IMG/VR virus record: IMGVR_UViG_3300043395_000730
Location: 1-60,875 of that record
From: a virus
DNA length: 60,875 nt
Reading direction: 5' to 3' (one strand)
A program made the position numbers and the translations under genes. Each line of letters starts with the position of its first letter. Positions within the stretch are counted from its first letter, which is position 1. Positions 2,742-60,016 of this stretch are shown one piece after another. The notes below the pieces were generated by a model. It was not told the origin of the DNA, made no database searches, and worked only from the letters and a program-made list of their open reading frames with translations.

Positions 2742-2941
2742 AGTATGATTTTTACATTAGTAAATTTAATTATTATTTCGCCAGTTAGGTTGTCTATCTC
2801 AGACCGATGGGCATATCGTTTGACTAATTGGCTGTCGTACTTGGTGCGTAGTATCAAACGTCCTCCAATGACTTTTGAACTGCTGAACTTTATGTGGCTA
2901 AGACCTAAGTTCTCGATGGTAAATTTTATTATCTCGTTCAT
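2735..2941 (-). CDS. hypothetical early protein (68 aa)
   Basis: The ATG at 2941 overlaps the TGA stop of the PAPS-reductase-like gene (ATGA), which is why I choose it over the longer start at 2965. The protein (MNEIIKFTIENLGLSHIKF) is beta-rich, with no recognised family. Coupled translation with the upstream gene is likely. Confidence 0.65.
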   Translation of the reverse strand: MNEIIKFTIENLGLSHIKFSSSKVIGGRLILRTKYDSQLVKRYAHRSEIDNLTGEIIIKFTNVKIILC

Positions 2942-3675
2942 TTTGTATCGCAAAAAATTCCACATTCATAAGACCGCATACCTCTACCCTTAGCATCCTC
3001 GGGTAACTCGTCAAGAAATATACGTTTGCCTTTATATCTAACTAACCGAACACCTAAACGACGGCTCTGCTCTGCCCTCTCTCTAAATTGTTCGGGATGC
3101 ATTCTCCTCACATGATTCCAATACGTTGGAGATGTAGCCTTTACACAGCCTATGCAGTTGGCGTTGGGATATCCCATCATGTATACCCTAGGTAGGGTTA
3201 TACCTGCACTAGTTATGATGTCAAAACACATCTGCTTTGTTATCCCTTCGTCAATCAATACTGGCAAAACATTAGACCTCTCGTACTTGACAAAACGCTC
3301 ATGCCTGTCTACCTCGTCTGCCGTGAATCCTAACACATGGTAGTCTATGTAGTTTGATTTCTCAAACTCGTACCTAGCTCCCTTCTTTAAGACAAGTGTA
3401 CACGGAGCACCATTTATACCGCTCATGTACTTACGCTTGTCCCATATGTCAACAGCTGATGTTGTGTTGGCTGTGCTGTTGACTGCTTGGATGATTGGTT
3501 GACCTATCCATTTTGATACGTCATCAAGAAATCTTCGGTTGTCAGAGTCCTCCTCGTCAACAGGATTGTTTACGATTAGAATGTTGTGAGTGTCTCCATA
3601 TTTCTCTATTGTCCGTTTTGAAGCTACGGCACTAGCGGCTCCACATGAGAACCATACGACAATTGTTTTTTTCAT
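2938..3675 (-). CDS. PAPS reductase-like PP-loop ATPase
   Basis: 245 residues of the phosphoadenosine-phosphosulfate reductase/PP-loop family. The N-terminal nucleotide-binding loop reads VVWFSCGAASAVAS (S-x-G-x-x-S type), and paired cysteines occur late (NCIGC near residue 170 and ECGIFC at the end), possibly a metal or Fe-S site. Such proteins are common in phages, where their substrate is generally unknown; relatives activate sulfur or adenylate nucleic-acid substrates. It is the first gene leftward of the iteron region at 3677-3964. A true sulfate-assimilation role is unlikely because no partner genes are present. Confidence 0.8.
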   Translation of the reverse strand: MKKTIVVWFSCGAASAVASKRTIEKYGDTHNILIVNNPVDEEDSDNRRFLDDVSKWIGQPIIQAVNSTANTTSAVDIWDKRKYMSGINGAPCTLVLKKGARYEFEKSNYIDYHVLGFTADEVDRHERFVKYERSNVLPVLIDEGITKQMCFDIITSAGITLPRVYMMGYPNANCIGCVKATSPTYWNHVRRMHPEQFRERAEQSRRLGVRLVRYKGKRIFLDELPEDAKGRGMRSYECGIFCDTK

Positions 3676-6068: not shown

Positions 6069-6281
6069 CTATTTTTCAGTTAAATTTTCACATGTAGCGT
6101 AGTCATATATCTGCTCAAATATTTTCTCTACTATGTATTCATTTGTTAGCGCATCGTATAAAATACCTTGAGCTGTTTCGTCATTACATTCAAATCTATC
6201 TTGAACGTCTTGAATTGTCCATAAGTTATCTACAAAATAACCTGCATCTCTTAATACTTGTTTTGCTTGTTGTACTGTCAT
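6069..6281 (-). CDS. conserved small phage protein (70 aa)
   Basis: MTVQQAKQVLRDAGYFVDNLW then I-x-D-V-x-D-x-F-x-C-N-D-E-x-A-Q, a pattern I know from a widespread but uncharacterised small phage/Bacteroidota family (x-L-x-x-x-G-Y-x-V-x-N-L-W-x-I-x-D-V). It is the first gene after hammerhead ribozyme 1, whose predicted cleavage would leave a 24-nt leader before its ATG. Confidence 0.75.
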   Translation of the reverse strand: MTVQQAKQVLRDAGYFVDNLWTIQDVQDRFECNDETAQGILYDALTNEYIVEKIFEQIYDYATCENLTEK

Positions 6282-6299
6282 GATTTCTATTTTTTAAAT

Positions 6300-6356
6300 G
6301 GTTAAGACGGCACTTTGCCAGTGCCGTTTCGGTCAGTTAGACCTCGTCAGTTAACC
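6300..6356 (-). ncRNA. hammerhead ribozyme 1 (type I)
   Basis: On the minus strand the 57-nt element reads: stem I GGTTAA/TTAACC; core CTGACGA; stem II GGTC/GACC with a 5-nt loop; core GAA; stem III ACGGCACT/AGTGCCGT with a 5-nt loop; cleavage triplet GTC. Every invariant hammerhead nucleotide (C3 U4 G5 A6 N G8 A9, G12 A13 A14, A15.1-U16.1, H17) is present. Cleavage is predicted between the bases opposite 6306 and 6305. The ends lie in stem I, so it is type I. The 5' half is also the last codons (R-L-T-D-E-V-stop) of the upstream gene. Confidence 0.92.
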
Positions 6357-6567
6357 TTGATTTCTTGAACCTAATCAAGTGACCTTCTTGGTAGTTTAAA
6401 AGGTCGTCTATCCTATCTCTTGGTATGGTAATCTTACCATGGATTGGATGGTTGATTTCGTTGATGCCAACGAATTGCTTGTTGCGAATCAATTGCTCTC
6501 GAACTGATAGTCGTCTTGTAGTTCCACTCGTCTCGTTGAAACCTACGTTTATTTTACCTGTTTTCAT
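6337..6567 (-). CDS. hypothetical basic protein (76 aa), 3' end inside a hammerhead
   Basis: MKTGKINVGFNETSGTTRRL, then R-E-Q-L-I-R-N-K-Q-F-V-G and a beta hairpin (HGKITIPRDRI). Basic and compact. I choose ATG 6567 rather than the TTG at 6594 because a hairpin (GTGCG/CGCAC) and a leader ending TTTTAACCATATG precede it. The last six codons and the stop are part of hammerhead ribozyme 1, so the coding end and the ribozyme core constrain each other. Confidence 0.65.
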   Translation of the reverse strand: MKTGKINVGFNETSGTTRRLSVREQLIRNKQFVGINEINHPIHGKITIPRDRIDDLLNYQEGHLIRFKKSRLTDEV

Positions 6568-6617
6568 ATGGTTAAAATTAATGTGCGTTACCAAGTCGCA
6601 CCCCTTGTTTTGTTATT

Positions 6618-6893
6618 TTACGCGAAAATCTCGCCTTTCATCTTTTTATACATAAAGCATTTCTCAAATCTTGAAGGAATCAAATTAAATAAATCAATTC
6701 TCTCTTGCTTCATCTCGTTTCCAAATCTCGCCATCAAGCGTTGATGCCAATTTTCTTGAGTTTCTTTTGACCTATTAAACGGATTTCCTTCCTCTGCAAA
6801 CTTAGAGCAATACTTGTAATAAACATCAGAGTAGATGTAACCTTGAATGTCCATCATATTTGATGCGTTTTCGATTTTTTCTATTGTTTTCAT
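6618..6893 (-). CDS. hypothetical early protein (91 aa)
   Basis: MKTIEKIENASNMMDIQGYI; helical, charged protein ending K-M-K-G-E-I-F-A. Leader carries TAGAAATCATG. No family recognised. Confidence 0.65.
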   Translation of the reverse strand: MKTIEKIENASNMMDIQGYIYSDVYYKYCSKFAEEGNPFNRSKETQENWHQRLMARFGNEMKQERIDLFNLIPSRFEKCFMYKKMKGEIFA

Positions 6894-6898
6894 GATTT

Positions 6899-7039
6899 CT
6901 ATTTATTATATACCTCATCCAATTGGTAGCCGTAACGCTTCTGCATGTAAGCTACATAGTTATTAAAATGTTGTTCGTTCTCAAAGTCCTTCGTAATGAT
7001 TATCTGCTCTCTACGATGGTTAAAAAATACTAGTATCAT
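6899..7039 (-). CDS. hypothetical small protein (46 aa)
   Basis: MILVFFNHRREQIIITKDFE then helical tail with Q-K-R-Y-G-Y-Q-L-D-E-V. The ATG overlaps the TGA of the upstream 36-aa gene (ATGA), and its TAG stop is part of the leader motif of the next gene. Start-stop coupling on both sides supports it as real. Confidence 0.65.
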   Translation of the reverse strand: MILVFFNHRREQIIITKDFENEQHFNNYVAYMQKRYGYQLDEVYNK

Positions 7040-7146
7040 CGCGCTCTGAATGGAATTAATAATCTCTTAGTCTTAACTAATGTTCCGTTTAGAAAGAATC
7101 CCCATACCTCGAAGTTCCCCTCAATTCTTAAAATTTTTGTGCTCAT
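7036..7146 (-). CDS. hypothetical small protein (36 aa)
   Basis: MSTKILRIEGNFEVWGFFLN then a basic tail ending F-R-A-R. It is the first gene after hammerhead 2; predicted cleavage would leave a 23-nt leader. Translationally coupled to the following 46-aa gene. Confidence 0.6.
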   Translation of the reverse strand: MSTKILRIEGNFEVWGFFLNGTLVKTKRLLIPFRAR

Positions 7147-7163
7147 GGTTATTAAATTAAATT

Positions 7164-7222
7164 GGTTAAGACGCGTACTGGCAAAGTCCGCGTTTCGTCC
7201 ATTAAGGACTCGTCAGTTAACC
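7164..7222 (-). ncRNA. hammerhead ribozyme 2 (type I)
   Basis: Minus strand: stem I GGTTAA/TTAACC; core CTGACGA; stem II GTCC/GGAC with loop TTAAT; core GAA; stem III ACGCG/CGCGT continuing, after a G-A mismatch, into ACT/AGT with a 5-nt loop; cleavage triplet GTC. Predicted cut between bases opposite 7170 and 7169. Stems II and III differ in sequence from ribozymes 1 and 3 but keep pairing, which is covariation support. Its first G is the last base of the upstream gene's TAG stop. Confidence 0.92.
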
Positions 7223-7548
7223 TAGTAAAAGTATCCTTGATACTCACATCTTGAAGGCTCTTCATTTCTCCATGTCCACTCGTCTGAGTTTTCAACGATA
7301 TTTGGGAATATCCAATCACCATTGCTGAATGATATCTTTATCCCTTCATCTCGTGTTGATTTGCCGTTCATCTCAGCTACTAACTCGTAATAGTCCTTAC
7401 CCCCAAAATCACCATATCCGTTGTACTCATGCTCTACCCAAGTGTTTCCCTTGTTGTCCATTAGTACTACCTTCATAGTGTCCATTGAAGAATGAATGTT
7501 AGCAATTGACTTGTTTGTGTCTTGTGTTTTAAAACTAAAGAATCCCAT
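7222..7548 (-). CDS. hypothetical early protein (108 aa)
   Basis: MGFFSFKTQDTNKSIANIHS; contains V-V-L-M-D-N-K-G-N-x-W-V-E-H-E-Y-N-G-Y-G-x-F-G-G-K-D-Y-Y, a pattern seen in uncharacterised phage/bacterial proteins that start with F-S-x-x-T-x-D-T-x-x-S-I. The stop codon abuts hammerhead 2. Lies 5 nt after the 126-aa gene. Confidence 0.7.
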   Translation of the reverse strand: MGFFSFKTQDTNKSIANIHSSMDTMKVVLMDNKGNTWVEHEYNGYGDFGGKDYYELVAEMNGKSTRDEGIKISFSNGDWIFPNIVENSDEWTWRNEEPSRCEYQGYFY

Positions 7549-7553
7549 GACGT

Positions 7554-7934
7554 TTAAATTTTAAAGATTTTTACCCCGTTAGTTACTATTAAATCGAATG
7601 TTTGTTTATCTACGTTACTTCCGTTCAAAGAGAAGAATGGGTTTACTCTTGGATTGTAAGATATCTCGTCTCCGTTCACATTAGACAACTCAACAATCTC
7701 GTATCTCTCACAAGATATCCAAGCACATCTCTCCTTGTGTATCTCACCCTTGTTAATCTTCTCAGCTCTTGTGCTAGAATTGTGTAAGTAGCATCCGTAC
7801 ATAACAATCATATGAGTAGAAGGGTTAACCAAGATATCTTTGCTACCCGATTTTATTTTAGACTTGCTTTCCAATTCGTGTATCTGCAAAAAGCCTTTGT
7901 TTACTGCTCCTAAATTTCTTCTTACTCCAAACAT
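7554..7934 (-). CDS. hypothetical early protein (126 aa)
   Basis: MFGVRRNLGAVNKGFLQIHE; beta-rich, with three cysteines (MYGCYL, ERCAWISCERYEIVEL). No recognised family. First gene after hammerhead 3; predicted cleavage would give a 24-nt leader that contains the TAGAACTCATG variant of the recurring start motif. Confidence 0.7.
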   Translation of the reverse strand: MFGVRRNLGAVNKGFLQIHELESKSKIKSGSKDILVNPSTHMIVMYGCYLHNSSTRAEKINKGEIHKERCAWISCERYEIVELSNVNGDEISYNPRVNPFFSLNGSNVDKQTFDLIVTNGVKIFKI

Positions 7935-7952
7935 GAGTTCTAAATTTTAAAT

Positions 7953-8009
7953 GGTTAAGACGACATCTTTTGAATGTCGTTTCGACTATTGAAGTCTCAT
8001 CAGTTAACC
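7953..8009 (-). ncRNA. hammerhead ribozyme 3 (type I)
   Basis: Minus strand: stem I GGTTAA/TTAACC; fully canonical core CTGATGA; stem II GACT/AGTC with loop TCAAT; core GAA; stem III ACGACAT/ATGTCGT with a 7-nt loop; cleavage triplet GTC. Predicted cut between bases opposite 7959 and 7958. Core identical to ribozymes 1 and 2 except the variable N7; both other stems are different sequences that still pair. Its first G is shared with the TAG stop of the upstream 37-aa gene. Confidence 0.93.
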
Positions 8010-8122
8010 TAAATGTAAATCGGTGGAACGTGCCCTGTTACGAGTTGATAGATGGCATATGAAATACCGAATATAACTCCAAACGCTAAACTGCTTGTCC
8101 AAACTGCAAATACTACTTTCAT
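8009..8122 (-). CDS. small single-span membrane protein (37 aa)
   Basis: MKVVFAVWTSSLAFGVIFGI continuing S-Y-A-I-Y-Q-L-V-T-G: one hydrophobic span of about 20 residues with a short polar tail (G-H-V-P-P-I-Y-I). It is the promoter-proximal gene of the leftward block. Preceded by a three-way-junction leader and followed directly by hammerhead 3, which overlaps its stop codon. Possibly an early envelope-directed peptide; function unknown. Confidence 0.65.
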   Translation of the reverse strand: MKVVFAVWTSSLAFGVIFGISYAIYQLVTGHVPPIYI

Positions 8123-8145
8123 GGCTATAAATTTAAATGGTTAGT

Positions 8146-8192
8146 GCCGTGCTGAGTTTCGCTCTCAGTAAATGACTCATAGTCAACACGGC
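8146..8192 (-). ncRNA. three-way-junction RNA leader
   Basis: Stem GCCGTG/CACGGC (8146-8151 with 8187-8192) closes a junction holding two hairpins: CTGAG/CTCAG (8152-8156 with 8164-8168, loop contains GCGAAA on the minus strand) and TGACT/AGTCA (8173-8177 with 8181-8185). It is followed, in minus-strand order, by CTAACCATTTAA, nearly the leader released by the hammerheads. It lies in the same place relative to the next gene, yet the hammerhead core CTGANGA is absent. It may be a decayed or different processing element. Confidence 0.6.
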
Positions 8193-8199
8193 TAAGTTT

Positions 8200-8580
8200 T
8201 TTTTCTTGGTGGAAGTATGGTTTAACGCGCTATACCAAAAACGAATACCGAATCACCCTCGGTAGGGGGCACTACCACCCTCAGATTTTTCGCGTCCTTC
8301 CTTTGGTTATGAATTTTCACGGCTTTTTCGACTTCTTGACTTTGAGTATGGCGCATCACTGCGGTTTATCTCTGCTTCAATCTCCTGTAAGCTTCAGTGC
8401 CGATATTAATACCCTCGGAGGGGGAGTGGCTCTTTGCTCAACGGGTCAGCCTATCCCGTGCGGTGTATTTTATAGTGCTATCGCTTTCGCACCTCGCTTT
8501 ATTAGACTCGCGGTCTCAGTCCAACTATGTGACCACGTTTGGTCGTTGATTCTGAAACAAAGTAACGGCAACTGATTGGA
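8200..8580 (-). ncRNA. large structured RNA candidate at the head of the early transcript
   Basis: No convincing gene, but many perfect local hairpins: GGTAG/CTACC (near 8262-8277), CGCA-GTGA-TGCG with a GNRA-type loop on the minus strand (near 8353-8364), ACGGG/CCCGT (near 8441-8459), GTGC/GCAC around GCGAAAGC (near 8477-8494), GACC/GGTC (near 8530-8545). The unpaired stretches are purine-rich on the minus strand and the tetraloops are GNRA-like there, so I assign minus. Local base composition is more GC-rich than neighbours. I do not recognise the family; RNase P, tmRNA and 6S signatures are not visible. Confidence 0.5.
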
Positions 8581-8601
8581 TTAATAACAAACTTTTTGCT
8601 A

Positions 8602-8655
8602 TACGTTTTTAAAAATACGTGTTTATACGTATAAGGATCTAAGTGTTTATACGTA
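8602..8655. repeat. TACGT repeat cluster, possible operator or promoter region
   Basis: Four TACGT copies (8602, 8616, 8626, 8650), including two exact 13-nt copies of GTGTTTATACGTA at 8619-8631 and 8643-8655. Lies upstream of the structured RNA in the divergent control region, a suitable place for a regulator binding site of early transcription. Confidence 0.5.
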
Positions 8656-8816
8656 GTGATGACACAATGAGAGAGCTAGTTTATGACTGGCAAAACCTTA
8701 TTGGTATTTGGATTGATGTGAATAACATATAAATTGCAATAAATTCATTTGGGGATTTGTTTACATAGGTGTTCCAACCCCTACCCTCCAATCAATCGCT
8801 CTGAAACGTAGAACGG

Positions 8817-9000
8817 ACGGTCGATTGGTCGATTGGTCTGCAGTTCTATTTAACATAATACATGTTATAGTACAAGTTGTGTGGGCAAATTTAAGGGTGG
8901 ATGAATTGGTCTCAGATAATAACCACCACCCCACCCCTACGCACAAGCACACCCACCCCTACACACGTGCGCGTAGCGTACATGCAGGCAGGCAGGCAGG
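8817..9000. repeat. low-complexity C-rich and GCAG-repeat DNA
   Basis: Contains tandem GGTCGATT (from 8819), two imperfect copies of CCCACCCCTACRCAC (about 8930 and 8951) separated by CA-rich sequence, and four or more GCAG units at about 8983-9000. Short frames here have simple-repeat peptide content and no homology I recognise, so I treat them as non-coding. Strand asymmetry (C-rich on plus) is unlike the rest of the genome. Confidence 0.55.
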
Positions 9001-10945: not shown

Positions 10946-10967
10946 GCCCTCCAATCGGAGGGTTTTT
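10946..10967 (+). terminator. rho-independent terminator
   Basis: Perfect stem CCCTCC/GGAGGG with loop AATC followed by six T. Separates the basic-protein unit from groEL-groES. Confidence 0.9.
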
Positions 10968-10980
10968 TGTTATTTATTAT

Positions 10981-10990
10981 TATATTTGTG
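10981..10990 (+). promoter_or_regulatory. -7 promoter element upstream of groEL
   Basis: TATATTTGTG, one mismatch to TAnnTTTGnA, just after the terminator and 16 nt before the groEL ATG. Confidence 0.6.
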
Positions 10991-11005
10991 TCAAAATATA
11001 ATAAA

Positions 11006-12574
11006 ATGGTAGTAAAACATGTTCATTTAGGCCAAGAAGGCCAACAAAAGCTCAAAAAAGGCATCAAGACGATCGCTGGAGCAGTCAAAAGTACATTAGG
11101 TGCGCGAGGGCGCACGGTACTAATAGAGTCAGAGCACCATGTGGGTGGTATAACAGTAACAAAGGACGGTGTAACGGTCGCTAAGTCGATAAACTTGTTT
11201 GATCCGACTGAGAACTTGGCTGTTATTATGATGCGCCAGGCTGCTGAGAAGACAGCAACGGTTGCTGGTGACGGTACAACCACATCTATAGTATTGGCTG
11301 AGGCTCTTATCAACTCTTCTGACGTACACTTATCTGACACAGACAACGTGACTGAGGTTATAAGAGAGATAAACGACCTAACAAAGGACGTTGTGGCGTA
11401 TTTAGACAAGAAAAGTAAAAAGGTAAAGGGTAAAAAGTTGGTTGATGTAGCCACTATAAGCGCAAACAACGACAGAGAGATCGGTAAGATGATCGCTAGT
11501 GCGTTCAACGAGGTTGACGTTGTTACTGTTGAGAACAGTATGACAAGCAACACATATGTCGAGATAATAAAAGGTATGAAGATCGACCGTGGAATGACGT
11601 CACCTTACTTTATCACAGACCAAAAGAAGCAAGAGTGTGTTCTTGACAACCCATACGTGTTGATATGCGATCACGAGATAAATAACTTGATATCTATCGA
11701 GAGTATATTAAAGCACTGCGTTATGAACCAAAAGCCGTTATTGATTATTGGTACGTTAGGCCAGAACGCTATGAACACATTAAACTTAAACGTGGCTAAG
11801 GGGCAGATCAAGGCGTGTAACATTCAGCCACCATCGTTTGGGTACCGCACAAAGGACCTTATGGAGGACATAGCTATCGCTACAGGCGGTACGTTCTTCT
11901 CTGAGTCTACTGGTGACGATTTGTCATTAATAACTGTAGCTGACCTAGGTCGTGCGAACCGTATTGTTGTGAGTAAGGGTATGACGGTATTTATGCCAAA
12001 CGCTGAGAGGGCTGATGCTATCGACACACAAGTTAGTCAGCTAAAGGACTCTAGATCTGAGATGTCATCCGACAAGGAGTTGCTTGACTTTACGAACGAG
12101 CGTATTGCAAACCTATCTGGCGGTGTTGGTGTTATATATGTTGGTGCCTTAAGTGACATTGAGCAGAAGGAGAAGAGAGATCGTATTGACGACGCTGTGT
12201 GTGCTGTAACTGCTGCACTAGAGGAGGGTATACTTCCAGGTGGAGGTATAGCGCTAGTTGACGCTGCATCATTCACACTACGTGGAGACAGTACTGCTTG
12301 TAAGATAATGCGTGACACTGTGATCGCTCCGTTCTATCAGATATTAATTAACGCAGGTAAGGACCCAGAGGAGATAAAGGCTAATATGTTGCCAATAGAG
12401 AACGAGGGGTATGACGTTAAGAACGAGCAGTACGGTGACATGTTAAAGCTTGGCATCATTGATCCAGCGAAAGTTACAAAGAACGCACTGTTAAACGCAG
12501 TGTCTGTAGCTACTACTATAATGAGCACAAATGCAATAATAACAAATGTAAGAGCAGATGAGAGTATTAAATAA
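11006..12574 (+). CDS. groEL: GroEL-type 60 kDa chaperonin, phage-encoded
   Basis: 522 residues from the ATG at 11006 (MVVKHVHLGQEGQQKLKKG); the upstream ATG-like extension is rejected because the promoter lies inside it. Chaperonin signatures are intact: T-L-G-A-R-G near the N-terminus, V-A-G-D-G-T-T-T (catalytic Asp near residue 87), S-G-G-V-G-V-I-Y-V-G-A, and R-I-D-D-A-V-C-A-V-x-A-A-x-E-E-G-I-L-P-G-G-G with the Asp equivalent to E. coli D398. Slightly shorter than the bacterial length of about 545, lacking a Gly-Met-rich tail. It would form an ATP-driven folding ring for phage or host proteins, with the co-chaperonin encoded next. Confidence 0.95.
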   Translation: MVVKHVHLGQEGQQKLKKGIKTIAGAVKSTLGARGRTVLIESEHHVGGITVTKDGVTVAKSINLFDPTENLAVIMMRQAAEKTATVAGDGTTTSIVLAEALINSSDVHLSDTDNVTEVIREINDLTKDVVAYLDKKSKKVKGKKLVDVATISANNDREIGKMIASAFNEVDVVTVENSMTSNTYVEIIKGMKIDRGMTSPYFITDQKKQECVLDNPYVLICDHEINNLISIESILKHCVMNQKPLLIIGTLGQNAMNTLNLNVAKGQIKACNIQPPSFGYRTKDLMEDIAIATGGTFFSESTGDDLSLITVADLGRANRIVVSKGMTVFMPNAERADAIDTQVSQLKDSRSEMSSDKELLDFTNERIANLSGGVGVIYVGALSDIEQKEKRDRIDDAVCAVTAALEEGILPGGGIALVDAASFTLRGDSTACKIMRDTVIAPFYQILINAGKDPEEIKANMLPIENEGYDVKNEQYGDMLKLGIIDPAKVTKNALLNAVSVATTIMSTNAIITNVRADESIK

Positions 12575-12821
12575 ATTCCTACTAGTAAAGAGACAGCAAG
12601 ACAGCAACAACATGTCAACGACTGGTTTCATGTATGGAGCTGACGATATGAGGGAGTTACGGTACCAAAAGGCTACCGTAATCTCTTTCGGTCAAAATGT
12701 AAGCGGTGTTGAAGAGAGCAGTGAGATACTGTTCGACAAGGTAGCTGGACATGACGTATTGATAGACAACGAGAGGTTAACTGTCATTCAAGAAAAGGAC
12801 GTTGTTTGCGTTCTTCGTTAA
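12558..12821 (+). CDS. groES: GroES-like co-chaperonin
   Basis: 87 residues overlapping groEL by 17 nt. Matches the GroES pattern: V-L-N-K-F-L-L-V-K-R at the start, a mobile-loop region (S-T-T-G-F-M-Y-G), K-A-T-V-I-S-F-G, I-L-F-D-K-V-A-G-H-D-V, and L-T-V-I-Q-E-K-D-V-V-C-V-L at the end. Forms the lid of the GroEL cage in the known system. Translational coupling implies matched expression. The 3' end overlaps an antisense gene by 38 nt. Confidence 0.85.
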   Translation: MRVLNKFLLVKRQQDSNNMSTTGFMYGADDMRELRYQKATVISFGQNVSGVEESSEILFDKVAGHDVLIDNERLTVIQEKDVVCVLR

Positions 12822-38127: not shown

Positions 38128-41100
38128 ATGAACGATAAATTACAACAACTTTATAATCTATACAAGAGTAAAGGTTTAATTAATACTACAGATTTTAATA
38201 CATTCGCTTCTGCAAACAGTCAGCAAATCCAACAACTATATAATCTTGGAAAGAAAAATGGCCTGTTTAATACTACAGATCTTAATACATTTAGTTCTGC
38301 ATTTAGTCCTCAACAAAAATGGAGACAAGTAACTGAGAAGGAAAGTGCAGGTAGATTGAATTACAGAAAAGATGATTTCAGAACTTGGGACATAGTAGAA
38401 GAGACTCAGAAGGGAATGACCAAGGAGGAGAGAAAGAAAACTGGGTTTGATTATACGCCAGAACAAATAGCTGCTGGTAAAAAAGCTGTTGCTATGGAAG
38501 AGGCTCCAGTTATTGAATACTCTGACCTTAAACTGAGAAGAGGTAAGGATGGCGTTTTCTACAAGGTAGAAGGTAATAATTGGTACGAGGTGGCATTTCC
38601 TAGAGATATGTCAAAAAATATTATAAACGAAAGTGTAGTAAGTCTTGAGGGCTCTGATCTTTATAAAATAAATGATCCTAAAAAAGTAGAGAGCTTAAAC
38701 ATTGAGTTTGGCGAAAAAGTAAAATTACCTAATGCTGGTTTTGATACCGATCAAAAATTAATCAAGTCTGGCATAGATACAAAAATACCATCTGTTCTAA
38801 ACAAAGCAGTCAAACCAGAGGATGATCCGTATGATGTTTTTGGAGGATGGGACGATAATACTAGAGGTCTTAGATTTAGAAAGGACGATTATTCTAATGT
38901 TTGGCTGCAAATCAAACCAGGTGTTGATTCAGGATGGTCTGTAGTTACAGAAACCATGGCTAAAGAATTAAACAAGCGTTATGGTGGTAAGTATGGTTCT
39001 GTGCCTAAACAAGCTGAGAACTTGACTGATTACCAGATATTAAACAAGACGTACGGACAAGAAGGTGGTTCTGGAGTCTTAAAAAGAGAACTACTTCCAG
39101 ATGGAGAGCCTACTTTTGGACTTCCGAAATCAGTAGAGAATGCAGGTTGGTTTCAAACACTTTACCCTCAGACAATGATGGGTCAAGTTGTAAATGCTCA
39201 AGAGGCGAGAAGAAGAGGTATGACATCTTTTGATGACAAGGTACATAGATTCGTATCGAATAATAATATAGCTAGACTTGAAGAAGAAGAGGCTGTAAAA
39301 ATGCTTACAAATGAGTTCGGTAGATATGGTTTTGAGTTTATAGAATCTGGAGTTAATGACGAGATGATCGTAAGAACAAAAGATGGCTTACGTGAAGTAG
39401 TAATAAATCTTGATACTGATGATCTAGGAGAAAATATAAGACTTCAAGATTTCTTAATAGTTAATATGGACCCATCTGCTTACGAGGCAGGTGATCAAAA
39501 ATACGCAGAGCTTATAAATAGAGACAGACGTCTCATTTATTCTAATAATGGTAGCAACAGTGCATCTCTTTATAAAGACCTAAAAGAGTTATTTAACGAT
39601 GAGGACTATAAAATATGGGCTCAAAATTTACCTTACGGTGAACTAGAACAAGAGGTAAACTATAGGATAGGTGAGTATAGAAGCTTAATGAATAAACCTG
39701 GAGTTAATAGCTCTGAAGTATTTAAAGATATGGAGACGTTTAAAAAATCTCCTATGTATCAACAATATCAAAAAAATAAGAAAGAGGCATTTGAGCTCGA
39801 AAGAATGAAAATGCAGTCACTGTATGATGAAGTTAGATTAGATCCAGGACAAAATTCAAGAGCTAGACAAAAGGTTAGAATGTTCTTGTCTGATAAATAT
39901 TTAGACAAAGCAAAAACTGAGTACAATGCAATGCTAAATGATATCAATCAGTCTGCTAAATTTTTAAAGACTAGATATGATGAATATCATAATGAACTTC
40001 AGAAATTAAACACGTCAAACTTAACGCCAGAACAAATAAGAGTTAAGAAAGAACAACTTGACAAAATGGCGTTACAGCTGGATGTAGATCGATCTAACTT
40101 AATTAGAAGACAAAAGGCCGTTACAACTGAAGCCAAGCAGCTTGAGTATTTAACAGGTAAGTATGTTGTTGACGTGGCTAAAGAAGGTGGATTTATTGGT
40201 GGGTTGATGAATAGCTTCTCAGACGGTATATCAAAAATGATAAAGACAGGAGATGTTGTTGGAAGGTTGCAAGCAGAGACAAAGGGTTCTCAGATTGCAG
40301 ACAACATGACAGAAGAGGAAAAGAGATACTATAAAACAAAAGGATATTCATTAGAAGAGATTAAAATAGCAGAGGCTAATAAAGCTTGGAAGGAATCAAA
40401 AGAAGATCTTTCTAACAGGATGAAGTCCGCTATTGGTGATCTAGCTACAACTAAACAGTACCAACAGTCTGAAGATAGAGGTATTGTTAGTAAAGCATTG
40501 TTTGGTCTTGCAGAATCTCTTCCAGCAATGGCTACATCATTTATTAATCCATACGTTGGTTTTGGATCATTGTCAGCTCAAGCATATTCATCTTTAGAGG
40601 ATGAGATGTTAAATGATCCAGATTTTGAAACAACGTCACTTACAGAGATGAACTTAATAGCATTACCATATGCTATGGCTATGGGAGCCTTGGAAAAGAT
40701 TGGTCTTAGTTCAGCTATGTCTAAAAACCCTCTTGCTAAGTCTCTTATAATGAAGTCTATACAAGGGGCTGTTAAAAAGACAACAGGTAAAGGATCAGCA
40801 GAACTTTTACAAAATGTACTAGACAAAGAGATCAAGTCGAATATGGCTAAGTTTGGAATAAGGATAGTCGGTGGTGCACTAACCGAGGCTGAAACTGGGG
40901 CTACTCAGTCATTGGTACTTGATATTGGATATAAGAGCTTGATCAACGAAATAAAAAAAGACGATAGACTAGCAAGCGAACTAACTGGAGGTGAGTTTTT
41001 TGATACCCCAGATAGCTTTATGGATGGTCTAAAGATGGTTATAGAGGATGGTATAGCTGAAGGTATTGGCGGTATGGTTATGAGTGGATTTGGATCTATG

Positions 41101-44100
41101 TCTCAAAAGGTTATAAATGGAAATATATCTCTTTATGATAATGAAGATGTTGATTTTTTAAAAACTGTTTCAACTGACAACGAGCTAAGAAAGATGATTG
41201 TGATAAAACTTAAGAGCGATATGCTTACTGGTAAAATTACAAAGTCTGAAGCTGAGAAACAATTGAACGCTCTTGATAAGGTTGGTGCTATATTTAATGC
41301 TATGCCTGACAACCTAAGTGTTGAGGACCAAGTTAAGTCTGTAAACCTTATGTCTGAAAAGCAAAGACTTGAAAAAGAAATTGACGGCAAGGATCAATCT
41401 CTTGTTGCCGCTCAAAAGGAAAGAATAACAGAGATTGATAACGAACTACAAAAAATTAGTAAAGATGCCTTTCAAAAGCAAGCAACAGGTGAAGTTCCTG
41501 TACAGCCAGAAGCCAGAGTTGGCGAAGAAGTGGAGGGAAGAAAACCCGAAACAAAACTTGAAGAAGTTACCAAAAAAGGTCAAGAAGGTGTAGTACAAAC
41601 ACAAGTTCCTAGAAAAAAAGGTTGGCAAAATAGTGTTGTTAAAAAAGAAGAATCAACTACTCCATCTGGAGATAAAGTAACTACATATAAGGCTTATGCT
41701 GTAAATGAAAATGGCAAAGAGACTAATATGGGAACAGGTATCTTAACTACTATAGGAGAAATTGCACCTTTAGTAAAAGGAACTGAAGGTGAATTAATGT
41801 TTTATGATGAAGATGGTAATTTAAAAGAAGATCCTAATGCTGAACTTTATATAACAAAAACAATAGAGGGAACCAATCAAGATGGAAGCTATCAACAGAG
41901 GGTTACAGTAGTTGCTAAAGGAGATTTAGAATTTAATGGAAGGATACAAGCTGATTTTACTACAAATAAAAATGTTGTAGTAGGCGAATCATCTTATAAA
42001 TCTAATTTAACAACTAAACAACAACAAGAAGTAACAATAGATAAACCTGTTATTGCTACAAATACAACGGCCGAACTTGATAGAGTTAAGTCTGTTGATA
42101 TGGAGACTGAAGATGGTGCTACGTTTAATATAGACGGAACTAAGTACGAAGGTGGTGGTTTGGTTGTTCCTATTGTTAGTGAGAACACTACTGTTGAGGA
42201 GATCACTCCAGAGATGATATCTGACTTTGTTGAAAAACATTCAAGCAAAATTGGAGATCAAAATACAGTTAAGGTTGGTATATATAAATTCCCTAACAGT
42301 AACAAGGTATCGATAGACCTAAATATCGTTGCTCCAGAGTCATCAAGACAGCAAGCCATTGAGTTTGCAAAAGCTGCTGATCAAGAGTCTCTGTTTGATT
42401 TATCTACATTTGAGAATGTAAAGACTGGCGGTACTGGAGTTAATCCTACACAATTTACTGACGAACAATTTAAAGAGATAGCTAAAGCTCTTAACGAAGG
42501 AAGAACTCCTAGTTTTGCAGCACCTACGCAACAAAACCTAGTAACACTTGAGAATGTAGAAGAGGTTGCAGACAAAAGAACAGCCACTGCCATTAAGTTG
42601 GTATTGAACGCTCTTCCTGACGTTAAGATATATATTCACAAGACAAACGAAGAGTACTCTGCCGCAATAGGTGAAGAGGCTGAAGCTGGAGACAGAGGAG
42701 CATACGATACACAAGAAGGAGCTATACACATTAATTTAGCAGCTGGAGGTAACGCTCAAACTGTTTTCCATGAGGCTATCCACCATGCATTACTAAAGAA
42801 AGGTATGGACAGTGGAGCTATACTTGATTTGGCTAATGGTCTTAATAGAATAATTACTGACAAGAAGTTAAAGAAAAGGTTAAGTGATTTCATATCTCAA
42901 TATGAAACATCTGACCAAGCTGAAGAGTATTTGTCAGAACTAGGGGCCATAATGGCTGAAGCTGAGATCGAACTAACTACAACAAAGTTCAATCAGTTTA
43001 AAGCGCTTATCGCTAGAATATTCCAAAAGTTAGGACTACCTAAATCTATGGTTCCTTTCTTGAATGCTATGAATTCAGAGAACGCTGTTGACTTTATTAA
43101 TAGTTTGACTAAATCTTTGAGGACTGGTGAAAACATAATGACTGACGGTTTTCAATCAACTATTAATCCAACTAACAAAATAAAGAAACAGGTTGAAGTT
43201 AAAGAAGGATATAAGCTTTCTTATGTTAAACAGTCTGATATAATAGATATACAATCATTAATATCTGACATTGCTTCAAATGATCAAAATGTTTGGTTCT
43301 GGGTTGCTGATCAACTTGGTAGAGGATTTGTTGAGGATGATGTTATAGATGGAAAACACTATTTAGATGCTGGGCCTTCATTTGCTCTTGATCCTAAAAA
43401 TAGAGAGAGAGGTATAATATGGGCGTCTGGAGCTAATCCAAGGACACTTCAAAATAATATAAATAAAAGTGATTATATATTCATTATAAGTGGATCGCCT
43501 CAAAAATCAAAGTTATTTAATAAGACCGTATCAAATCTAGTAAGATCTAGAATAGAAAAAAGTGTTGATTTCGATACATTTAAAAAATCACTTATAGAGG
43601 CTAATGCTCCAAAAGATATAACGTCAATACTTGAAAAATATAACAGTTATGATGATTTATTTAATGGTCCAGATAGAAAAGCATTTTTAATAGCTATAGG
43701 CAATCAAGCAAATAAGAAGGCTACTAAATCTAAACAATTACTTGAATCATATAATGCTTTTGTTGATTATGATTCATTGAGAGATGATTTCTATAGAGAG
43801 AATGGATTTGAAATGGGTGATATAATGCTTGTATTGAAGCCTACAGGTGTTGGTGAAAAATCAGATCATTCGACATATGAGAATAATATTTTAGGTGAAG
43901 TTGTAGGTGTTCCAGATTCTATAATAAATTCTTATGATATCCTTCCAGAAGAAACTAGAAATAAATACAAAGAAGATATAAGCAGAGTTCAACAACAACA
44001 AGTTGTGGCTCCTTATGGTATGGGTGTTAGTAAAGTTAAAAAACACAAAGGTGAAAAAATAACTGCACCAGTAGCTGGAAACAAGTTGTTCAATGAGCCT

Positions 44101-47100
44101 TTAAAGGATGCTGAAAATATAGCTAGATCTTACATGCAATCTATCGGTATGGAATACGTGCCAGTAGAAAAGATAACAAAACTAGATGAAGATCTTTCAA
44201 AAAGAATATCTGACGCTTACGATCAGATGGAAAATAATCCAAACGATCCGAAGGTAAAGGCTGCTTATGAGGCTATGGCTAAGGAAACATTAGATCAGTA
44301 TGACGCTATAGTTAAAGAAGGCTACAATGTTGAGATAAATAATAACGAGCCTTACTCCAACTCTGAGGCTATGATAAAAGACCTTAAGGATAATAAGAGG
44401 ATGAAAATATTCTCTACAGAATCTGGTTTTGGAGATGAGCCTATAACTGAAGAGCAGAGATCTGAAAATTTATTATTAAAAGACTCTGGAAGAAAGGATG
44501 TAAATGGTGAGACTTTATTGATCAATGACGTGTTTAGATTTGTGCATGACTTCTTTGGTCACGCCAAACTAGGCAACAGTTTTGGTCCAGTAGGAGAAGA
44601 GAATGCTTGGAGAGTTCACTCTGAGATGTATTCTCCAGAAGCTAGAAAGGCTATGACATCTGAGACAAGAGGTCAAAATAGCTGGGTTAATTTTAGTGGT
44701 GTAAATGACGCTGCATTCAAGAAGAGAGATAAGGCTAGAGAACTTCGTAAAGAAGGTAAGACAGAAGAGGCTGATAGATTGGTAGGTGAGGTATATGAGG
44801 AGATGAAATTTGCCGATCAAAAGGTTGGCATATTGCCAGATTTTGCTATTGAAGAGGGGACTAGGTTTAAAAAACAGAAAGATAATACTGGATATAGATC
44901 TGGGGATTTAATAAAAAAAGCAGAAACTAAAGATAAATTCGAAGGAAGTGATAGAAGCACTGGTCATTTTGGCACTGGATTTTATTTTTTTGGAACTAAA
45001 AACCAAGCAGATCAATATGGTGAACGAGCTACAAGTACTATTGATTTAGATGGATATAATTTAGCAAAAGGAACTATTGAACTTCATGATTTATTAAAAG
45101 ATATCAATAACAATTCTATAGGTAAAAATAAAAATATAGATAAATTAAAATCTAGAATTGAAAATTTATTAAATTACCTAGGTAAATCAGAAGTTACCAA
45201 ATTAAGTCGCGATTATTCTGAACTAGAATTTAAATCTTATGTTCAAAGTGAAATAAATCAAAAAAATAAAATAGAATCAATAATAAATGAAATAAATAAT
45301 AATAATGTTGATTCTCCATCAACAGTAGTTATGAAATCGTTGGGATTTGATGGTGTAGATTCAAGAGGTACAGATTTAGATAATGCTCAATATGGAAGTG
45401 TAGTATATTCAATAAAACAATTCAAAAAACAAAAACCAACATCCAAACAAGAGGCCATCCAAAAGGCCAAGGATAAGTACGAACTGTCTGTAGAGAAGAG
45501 AGGTAATTCTCACGAGCAAGGCGTAGCCGCTGCTCTTGGTGACTTGCAAAAGTCTAATTGGTTTGCAAACGCTGACGATACAGCTAGAGAAGATGCAGTT
45601 AGAGAGATCAAGGCTTTCTTTGGTGAGAAGATTAAGAAGGCTCCATCTGTTGCTAAGATTTTAGGTAAACCAAAACCAGAGACGCAAACAAAAACCGTTG
45701 ATGCCTTACGAAAAGAATTCTTTACTGCTTGGAACAAAGCGTCAAGAGAAGCAAAGGCCGATCTAAATTCCAAAAGAAAAGCCATCGGAGCTATCATCAA
45801 GTCAATGGTCCGATCTGGCAAAATAACTACCAAACAAGCAGCCGTTATAACAGACAGGGCTAGCAGTATAAATCTTGAGAACCCAGTAATTGTACAAAGA
45901 TTCTTGGACTACGTTAGTAAGGTATTTGCTGACGCTAACTATCAAGAGAAGTTAAGCAACGCTTTCTCTACTAGAAAAGCGATAAGAAGATTAACTAAGT
46001 CAAACAACCAAGCAGAGGTTATAGGGATGGCTAAGGCATTCCTAAATATAGACCCATCAATGGTTGAAGACATAGACACATACAACGAGATAGCTGAGTC
46101 AATCAAAAATGCTATGGCTCCATCTGTTGTAAGAGGAGAGCAAGTTAAGTTCAAGCAACCAGCCAATATAGCTGACGTGAATGAATACACGATGGAAGAG
46201 CTGTCAAAACAAGAGGAAATTAAAAAGGACCAATTGTTGGCTGAGTATGACTACCTTAAGGATGCTGGTTTGATATCTAAAGACATGACTCTAAATGAGA
46301 TAAGAAAGATCATAGAGGATATGAAGTCTACAGATACTGATATCAACGATGACGTTAAAGACTTTGTTGAGAGAAGACTAGATATGATGCTTGGTATTGT
46401 AGAGTCTATTATTAGAACTGGAGTCAATCCAATCACTGGAGAACCTATGGAGATATCTGATAAAAACAAAGATATCCTAAAAGCTATAATGAAGATGGAT
46501 CTAAAAGAACTTGATACAAGAAGCTTGATCTATCTATCTGAATCTGTAGATAACTTCCTAAATAACGGAATAACAAGCGGTCTTGAGGCTAATGTACAGT
46601 CATATGTTGGAGCTATGAAAGTTAAGGCTCTTGTAAATGCTGGCGTTAAATCTGTTGGTATAAAAACAAAAGCTTCTAAGATAGCATCTACTGAAATACT
46701 TAGCATACCTTTATTATTTGAAAAATTATTTAGAGGTACTACTATTGGTACTAGAATAATGAGTGATATGGGATTGTTGGATATGGTTAACGGCAAAAAT
46801 AAAGCTGAACTTATATACAACAAAATACTTGAATCGTACACAAAGCAAGATTTCTACGGAAAGGACTTTATGACTCAACAGAACATCATAGAAAGAGGTA
46901 TGCTTGCATATCTTATGAGAAATGTTAATGGTGATAACGCTCAAGTTAAAGCAGAACTAAACAGGAGAATTGACGCTATATCTGAGAGTATTAAACAACT
47001 AAAAGAAGGAAATAGCGATGAGCAGAAACTAGCTGAAATGTATGAGAATGCATTCTCTAAGTTAAAAGTAAATTCTAGAGACATTGATATCATAAGAGCT

Positions 47101-59889: not shown

Positions 59890-60016
59890 TTGTCAGGACA
59901 GGATTCGAACCTGTATCTATGATGGGATTTCTCCTAAGTATGAGGTGTGCTTACGATTATATTTTCAAATCTTTATCACTCCATCCTATAGCGTCTACCA
60001 ATTCCGCCACCTGACT
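59890..60016 (-). tRNA. tRNA-Leu-like element with abnormal anticodon region
   Basis: On the minus strand: acceptor GTCAGG/CCTGAC (6 of 7 pairs, first pair A-A mismatched), D-arm G-C-G-G-A-A-T-T-G-G-T-A-G-A-C-G-C of leucine type, T-arm ACAGG-TTCGAAT-CCTGT, discriminator A. A normal anticodon arm is missing: the 76 nt between D-arm and T-arm are about 42 nt too long and no 5-bp/7-nt-loop with T33 fits. Instead CTAT and GATGG pair with CCATC and ATAG to make a long helix with a bulge. It is a pseudo-tRNA, an intron-like insertion, or a tRNA-like RNA. Confidence 0.6.

Follow-up and report, generated by a model that had tools for sequence, protein, structure and literature searches.

Compact type I hammerheads at stop-start boundaries of phage operons

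Three type I hammerheads stand at gene boundaries on one strand of a phage contig, within 1.7 kb of each other, and belong to a rigid, compact family that is abundant in viral contigs. We observed the motifs, the fold, the covariation, the fixed geometry and the one-strand placement between stop and start codons and, judging from the sequences, these elements are probably active compact type I hammerheads that punctuate phage polycistrons by self-cleavage. Both the arrangement and its proposed role have been known since 2011, when a study (PMC3088659) described hammerhead clusters that could cut phage transcripts down to mRNAs the size of genes or operons, and a sequence-only reading that took such a system to be undescribed was mistaken on that point. 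What is new, as far as the open literature shows, is that the form is rigid and compact and abounds in viral contigs, that its fit between stop and start codons has been measured, that a cultured flavophage carries it, and that Rfam 15 does not report it. The role of hammerheads in bacteria and phages has been described as an open question (PMC6155905), and our search of mainly open-access papers found nothing relevant on hammerheads of Bacteroidota, of Flavobacterium or of crAss-like phages. With a common family of constant geometry and placement that a cultured phage, elemoA (MT497017), also carries, the 2011 mRNA-processing proposal becomes directly testable. The family also exposes a gap in Rfam 15, which leaves perfect hammerheads of phage contigs unannotated.

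The window, meaning the whole stretch analysed, is an IMG/VR virus contig of 60,875 bases. We scanned both of its strands for any type I hammerhead (CUGANGA, stem II, GAA, stem III, UH, stem I) and found exactly three motifs, all on the minus strand and at the positions that the sequence-only reading had named (HHR1 to HHR3; Table 1). The chance expectation is 0.005 motifs per shuffled window (200 shuffles, dinucleotide model), and 1.1 Mb of phage loci, shuffled three times, yielded no motif. On the minus strand each element has the layout 6 bp-CUGANGA-stem II-GAA-stem III-C^-6 bp, with 6/4/8, 6/4/5 and 6/4/8 contiguous pairs in stems I/II/III of HHR1, HHR2 and HHR3, respectively. The invariant core (C3 U4 G5 A6 N7 G8 A9, G12 A13 A14, A15.1-U16.1, H17) is complete in all three, and the topology is that of type I, stems II and III being closed by loops and stem I open. 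As had been noted from the sequence, stem I is identical throughout (GGUUAA/UUAACC), while stems II and III vary in sequence and keep their pairing.

Folding and homology searches agree with the scanner. For the isolated elements both the minimum free energy (MFE) structure and the centroid are the hammerhead fold (z -3.1, -2.1 and -4.2); with natural flanks the MFE structure keeps the full hammerhead in 3/3 elements, and the centroid keeps it intact in elements 2 and 3 and lacks one stem I pair in element 1. A covariance model built from 40 copies of other phages, with the window elements left out (R1), scored all three above 60 bits (E about 1e-12), and the next-best match within the window reached 13.4 bits. 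In the Rfam check that the earlier reading had proposed, Rfam 15 reported no hammerhead in the window at gathering cut-offs. Hammerhead_1 (RF00163) has the same open stem I topology and invariant core, yet gave no match at E 0.001 in the record and did not reach its curated cut-off of 34 bits. The nearest sub-threshold family, RAGATH-1-hammerhead (RF03152), has a helix order and core identical to those of the window elements; in its Rfam model, however, stem I has 5 bp and a hairpin lies upstream, and the elements score 25–29 bits against its cut-off of 56.3 (27.0 and 25.4 bits for two of them, 25.4–28.6 bits overall). HHR1 to HHR3 are confirmed as canonical type I hammerheads. Hammerheads cut after H17, leaving a 2',3'-cyclic phosphate and a 5'-OH, and from their sequences self-cleavage by the three predicted ribozymes is very likely; the 5'-OH ends predicted from the C17 positions are those the earlier reading had given.

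Table 1. Features of the hammerhead array, in the order of leftward transcription.
Feature	Position	Strand	Detail	Support
HHR1, type I hammerhead	7953..8009	-	predicted cut after C 7959, 5'-OH end 7958	R1 63.7 bits, fold
HHR2, type I hammerhead	7164..7222	-	predicted cut after C 7170, 5'-OH end 7169	R1 61.5 bits, fold
HHR3, type I hammerhead	6300..6356	-	predicted cut after C 6306, 5'-OH end 6305	R1 60.8 bits, fold
37-aa ORF upstream of HHR1	8009..8122	-	G of UAG stop is first base of HHR1	
Predicted post-cleavage HHR1 leader, 24 nt, A/U-rich	7935..7958	-	first 6 nt are 3' strand of stem I	
126-aa ORF	7554..7934	-	leads HHR1-HHR2 segment	
108-aa ORF upstream of HHR2	7222..7548	-	G of UAG stop is first base of HHR2	
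Predicted post-cleavage HHR2 leader, 23 nt	7147..7169	-		
36-aa ORF downstream of HHR2	7036..7146	-		
46-aa ORF, HHR2-HHR3 segment	6899..7039	-		
91-aa ORF, HHR2-HHR3 segment	6618..6893	-		
85-aa ORF, TTG start (in-frame ATG at 6567)	6337..6594	-	last codons and UAA stop within HHR3	
Predicted post-cleavage HHR3 leader, 24 nt	6282..6305	-		
70-aa ORF downstream of HHR3	6069..6281	-	common phage protein family	

The location at gene boundaries also holds: HHR1 and HHR2 each begin on the G of the preceding ORF's UAG stop, stem II of HHR3 contains the end of the ORF that precedes it, and the next ATG follows the cleavage site by 24, 23 and 24 nt. The earlier expectation of gene-sized pieces needs revision, as the two predicted internal pieces are short operons, one of 789 nt (7958–7170) with 2 ORFs (126 and 108 aa) and one of 864 nt (7169–6306) with 4 ORFs (36, 46, 91 and 85 aa); cutting into short pieces as such is probable. 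Most gene boundaries of the window's operon are without a ribozyme, and this counts against the punctuation reading.

That the transcript is early, another element of the earlier reading, is drawn from gene layout only. At its left end the contig has leftward genes that start beyond a long stretch lacking any clear gene (about 8122–8900), and the leftward genes of the opposite end encode, among others, an exonuclease, a helicase and a primase-like protein; with leftward genes at both ends, an early operon running leftward is plausible, provided that the genome is circularly permuted. We found no terminal repeat of at least 20 bases in the record. Its terminase relatives are phages of Flavobacterium (Elemovirus), Cellulophaga, Tenacibaculum and Maribacter, and in MW202828, the nearest named relative by terminase (67% identity), we found no hammerhead, which likewise counts against punctuation. 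Sigma-70 promoters near the array were fewer than in shuffles and are uninformative. The region 8122–8900 (minus strand), which lies upstream of the array and comprises about 700 nt with no clear gene, holds no Rfam family over cut-off, and the stability of 8122–8580 (minus strand) does not exceed that of shuffles (z -0.47). Among the window proteins scanned, a part of the total, none is an RNA end enzyme (kinase or ligase).

We searched IMG/VR with a pattern carrying the window's stem I, which returned at least 119 stretches, and with one in which stem I was unconstrained and loop II partly fixed, which returned at least 120. Among the matches listed, 104 of 111 stem-I-free copies in newly fetched loci have a 6-bp stem I, in many different sequences, so that identity of stem I marks one group and not the class. 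A special sequence function for the identical stem I is rejected as a general rule, as the stem I of other phages varies, even within one genome; its similarity is 0.65 between copies of the same genome and 0.50 between copies of different genomes. Pooling gave at least 274 non-redundant copies among the matches listed, chosen for an intact core, in which stem I has exactly 6 contiguous pairs in 266/274 and stem II 4 pairs in 250/274, loop II in the rigid form being 5 nt on a 4-bp stem II. In the same pooled matches stem I has a G-C pair at its distal end in 95% and an A-U pair at its proximal end in 95% (91% and 90%, respectively, among the matches listed of the stem-I-free set). Covariation among the 40 phage copies is strong: 640/640 pair cells (100%) are standard, 13 of 16 pairs changed on both sides, and the covariation score is 0.808, against 0.145 for shuffled and at most 0.10 for slid alignments. 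The rows of this alignment were picked by structure, and the 104/111 from the stem-I-free search is the less biased figure. The three helices round the core are kept by compensatory change.

Stem I is also framed in a constant way. Among the matches listed, an A stands on both sides of it in 255 of the 270 copies with enough flank, and no distal helix extends it in the family. The -1 A is not merely part of stop codons, since it is present in 141/146 copies listed with the stop inside the ribozyme. Loop II, in the listed matches of the set where it was not fixed, is mostly U-N-A-N-U; with the flanking A's, this suggests a contact in which the stem I region may dock on loop II, the kind of tertiary contact associated with fast cleavage in type I hammerheads. 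Stem III loops range from 11 to 59 nt and have no conserved ligand-binding part (among the matches listed).

The placement between neighboring genes is fixed as well. Among the matches listed, an ATG-started ORF begins no more than 120 nt past the cleavage site in 257/265 copies, compared with 74/265 for an ATG within 120 nt on the opposite strand; the ATG lies within 50 nt in 243/265, against 31% of random same-strand positions, and the distance has a median of 24 nt (IQR 22–28) for ORFs of at least 30 codons. On the other side, where the upstream ORF was assigned mechanically as the longest open frame, its stop falls inside the ribozyme in 116 of 225 listed cases (42 of these at the core UGA), overlaps the first base or bases in 33/225 and lies 0–10 nt before in 56/225. 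None of the 62 multi-copy loci listed is of mixed strand (0/62), and successive sites are a median of 538 nt apart. We searched 69 distinct IMG/VR records whole, all selected for holding a copy; many have 2–7 copies, most within a few kb, and single copies are also common. The leaders are A-rich (52% A, among the matches listed). Shine-Dalgarno-like words occur in 22/118 leaders of the GGUUAA set and 71/107 of the other set, again among the matches listed, and with such words in both sets the design is not restricted to hosts lacking them.

The genes that follow are mostly unrelated small orphans. Among the matches listed, 201 downstream proteins fall into 169 clusters with a median of 83 aa, and a scan of 76 of them gave few family matches, an anti-restriction protein and an ArdC-type domain among them; anti-restriction matches are too few for a claim of enrichment, and ardA adjoining hammerheads was noted by Perreault et al. 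(PMC3088659). We found no defense-system proteins downstream of hammerheads and no relatives of the 126-aa protein. The 70-aa gene has 87 IMG/VR relatives; in the 80 loci examined a hammerhead stands directly before the relative in 0/80 and within about 3 kb in 5/80, which indicates that no single cut is needed for this gene. A tie to one gene family is rejected, given unrelated downstream proteins and relatives of the 70-aa gene without an adjacent hammerhead.

In bacterial genomes the family is rare. Across about 85,000 bacterial and archaeal species, 2 contigs, each from a metagenome bin, carry the GGUUAA form, and R1 matched 3/299 Pseudomonadota genomes, the starting bin included. CAIYZI010000179.1 (binned as a beta proteobacterium) and QYPT01000005.1 (binned as a Streptomycetaceae bacterium) carry arrays of 2 and 4 such hammerheads, respectively, and are possibly mis-binned phage contigs. 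Among named phages, Flavobacterium phage elemoA_7-9A, a distant relative of the window virus, has one R1 copy (MT497017:17287-17350, 55.6 bits) near the start of a small-gene operon that runs on to genes for ERF and an exonuclease; the next ATG follows the predicted cut by 28 nt. The public elemoA record places an antisense 'hypothetical protein' (MT497017:17275-17382) over the ribozyme, which is probably a spurious gene call that fills the gap between genes. The pelagiphages HTVC019P, Jormungand, HTVC131P and HTVC022P have one R1 copy each (42–48 bits), upstream of MarR and integrase genes and without the 24-nt spacing where the sequence was read; no integrase gene was seen near the window copies. 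Blast matches in Psychrobacter, Streptomyces, Vibrio 1.030.O and Gordonia phages had no R1 match and were taken as chance.

If the elements act as their form indicates, the leftward polycistronic transcript, in a phage of Flavobacterium-like hosts, would be cut during transcription. The upstream mRNA would then end with the ribozyme itself right after the stop codon, so that its 3' end would be rich in hairpins and bear a 2',3'-cyclic phosphate, and the downstream mRNA would start with a 5'-OH, followed by about 24 nt of unstructured, A/U-rich leader up to the ATG. Such ends would be poor substrates for nucleases that require a 5'-phosphate or a free 3' end, and the likely benefit would be to place small accessory genes on short mRNAs with their own stability and translation. 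We infer cleavage in cells, the chemistry of the ends, which is standard for hammerheads, and any effect on mRNA stability or translation; as a precedent, tandem arrays of the phage type are active in vitro, and one of them also cleaves in E. coli (PMC3088659). A trailing ribosome could unfold the ribozyme, as the upstream ORF often enters it. We put forward a more specific scheme, widespread among phages, tentatively, as a possible but doubtful extension: a hammerhead of roughly 58 nt may fill the stop-to-start gap, supply or overlap the stop, form the 3' end and set a 5'-OH leader of about 24 nt, near one ribosome footprint, coupling cleavage and translation at the boundaries of small accessory genes that are mostly orphan and sometimes anti-restriction.

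Several other accounts of the same placement were weighed. The frequent stop inside the ribozyme, where a terminating ribosome would cover the core, would fit a regulated switch in which a ribosome entering from the upstream ORF, or a ligand, decides cutting, and cleavage would report on, or control, how the gene pair is translated. The overlap may, however, merely reflect tight packing and the UGA that is always in the core, the stem III loops offer no conserved ligand-binding part, and the start codon and its leader are not covered by the ribozyme; with stem I ending about 18 nt upstream of the ATG, this is not a simple masking switch, and we consider regulation of this kind unlikely. Unrelated downstream proteins, the variable presence of hammerheads among phages with related genes, and the greater likeness of stem I within a genome than between genomes would each suit selfish or recombination elements, short conserved boundaries that move accessory cassettes between phages and for which cleavage is of little use. 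Yet all three stems show compensatory change and the core is invariant, which points to selection for the RNA fold, and DNA recombination alone would not need such a fold; copies of the same genome differ in stems II and III, and shared sequence is limited to the ribozyme and the flanking A's, making this origin quite improbable.

Segments of a few hundred nucleotides lie between tandem type I copies, and pairs of such copies might excise RNA that is then circularized, as in retrozymes and viroid-like RNAs (PMC4918200, PMC7761336), which likewise carry tandem hammerheads in one transcript. The window array, in contrast, has protein-coding segments between its copies and no retroelement or circular RNA features: the segments hold ordinary phage operon genes, single copies are common, and spliced or circular products of such arrays were sought and none found (PMC3088659), so that excision is very improbable here. 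Punctuation by self-cleavage is closest to the clusters of Perreault et al. (PMC3088659), which likewise have several same-strand hammerheads, type I included, at phage gene boundaries with no constant gene identity, and for which cutting into operon- or gene-length mRNAs was proposed. Unlike those prophage clusters, the window family occurs in viral contigs and is nearly absent from bacterial genomes, has a rigid geometry (a 6-bp stem I between two A's, a 4-bp stem II and a 5-nt loop), and has had its stop-start codon fit measured.

Other features of the window are of separate interest. A tRNA-like element at 59890–60016 (minus strand; 34.3 bits, over the Rfam cut-off) has a typical 5' part and T arm, and its 127-nt span is too long for an ordinary tRNA and drew no ARAGORN call; it is possibly an interrupted tRNA or a tRNA-like structure. 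The leftward operon includes a phosphoadenosine phosphosulfate reductase-like gene at 2938–3675 (minus strand; phrog_424). On the plus strand, a phage GroEL (Cpn60) is followed by GroES (Cpn10) at 10967–12821, a pair also annotated in MW202828, and a single ORF of 3702 aa (38128–49236) occupies about 18% of the contig.
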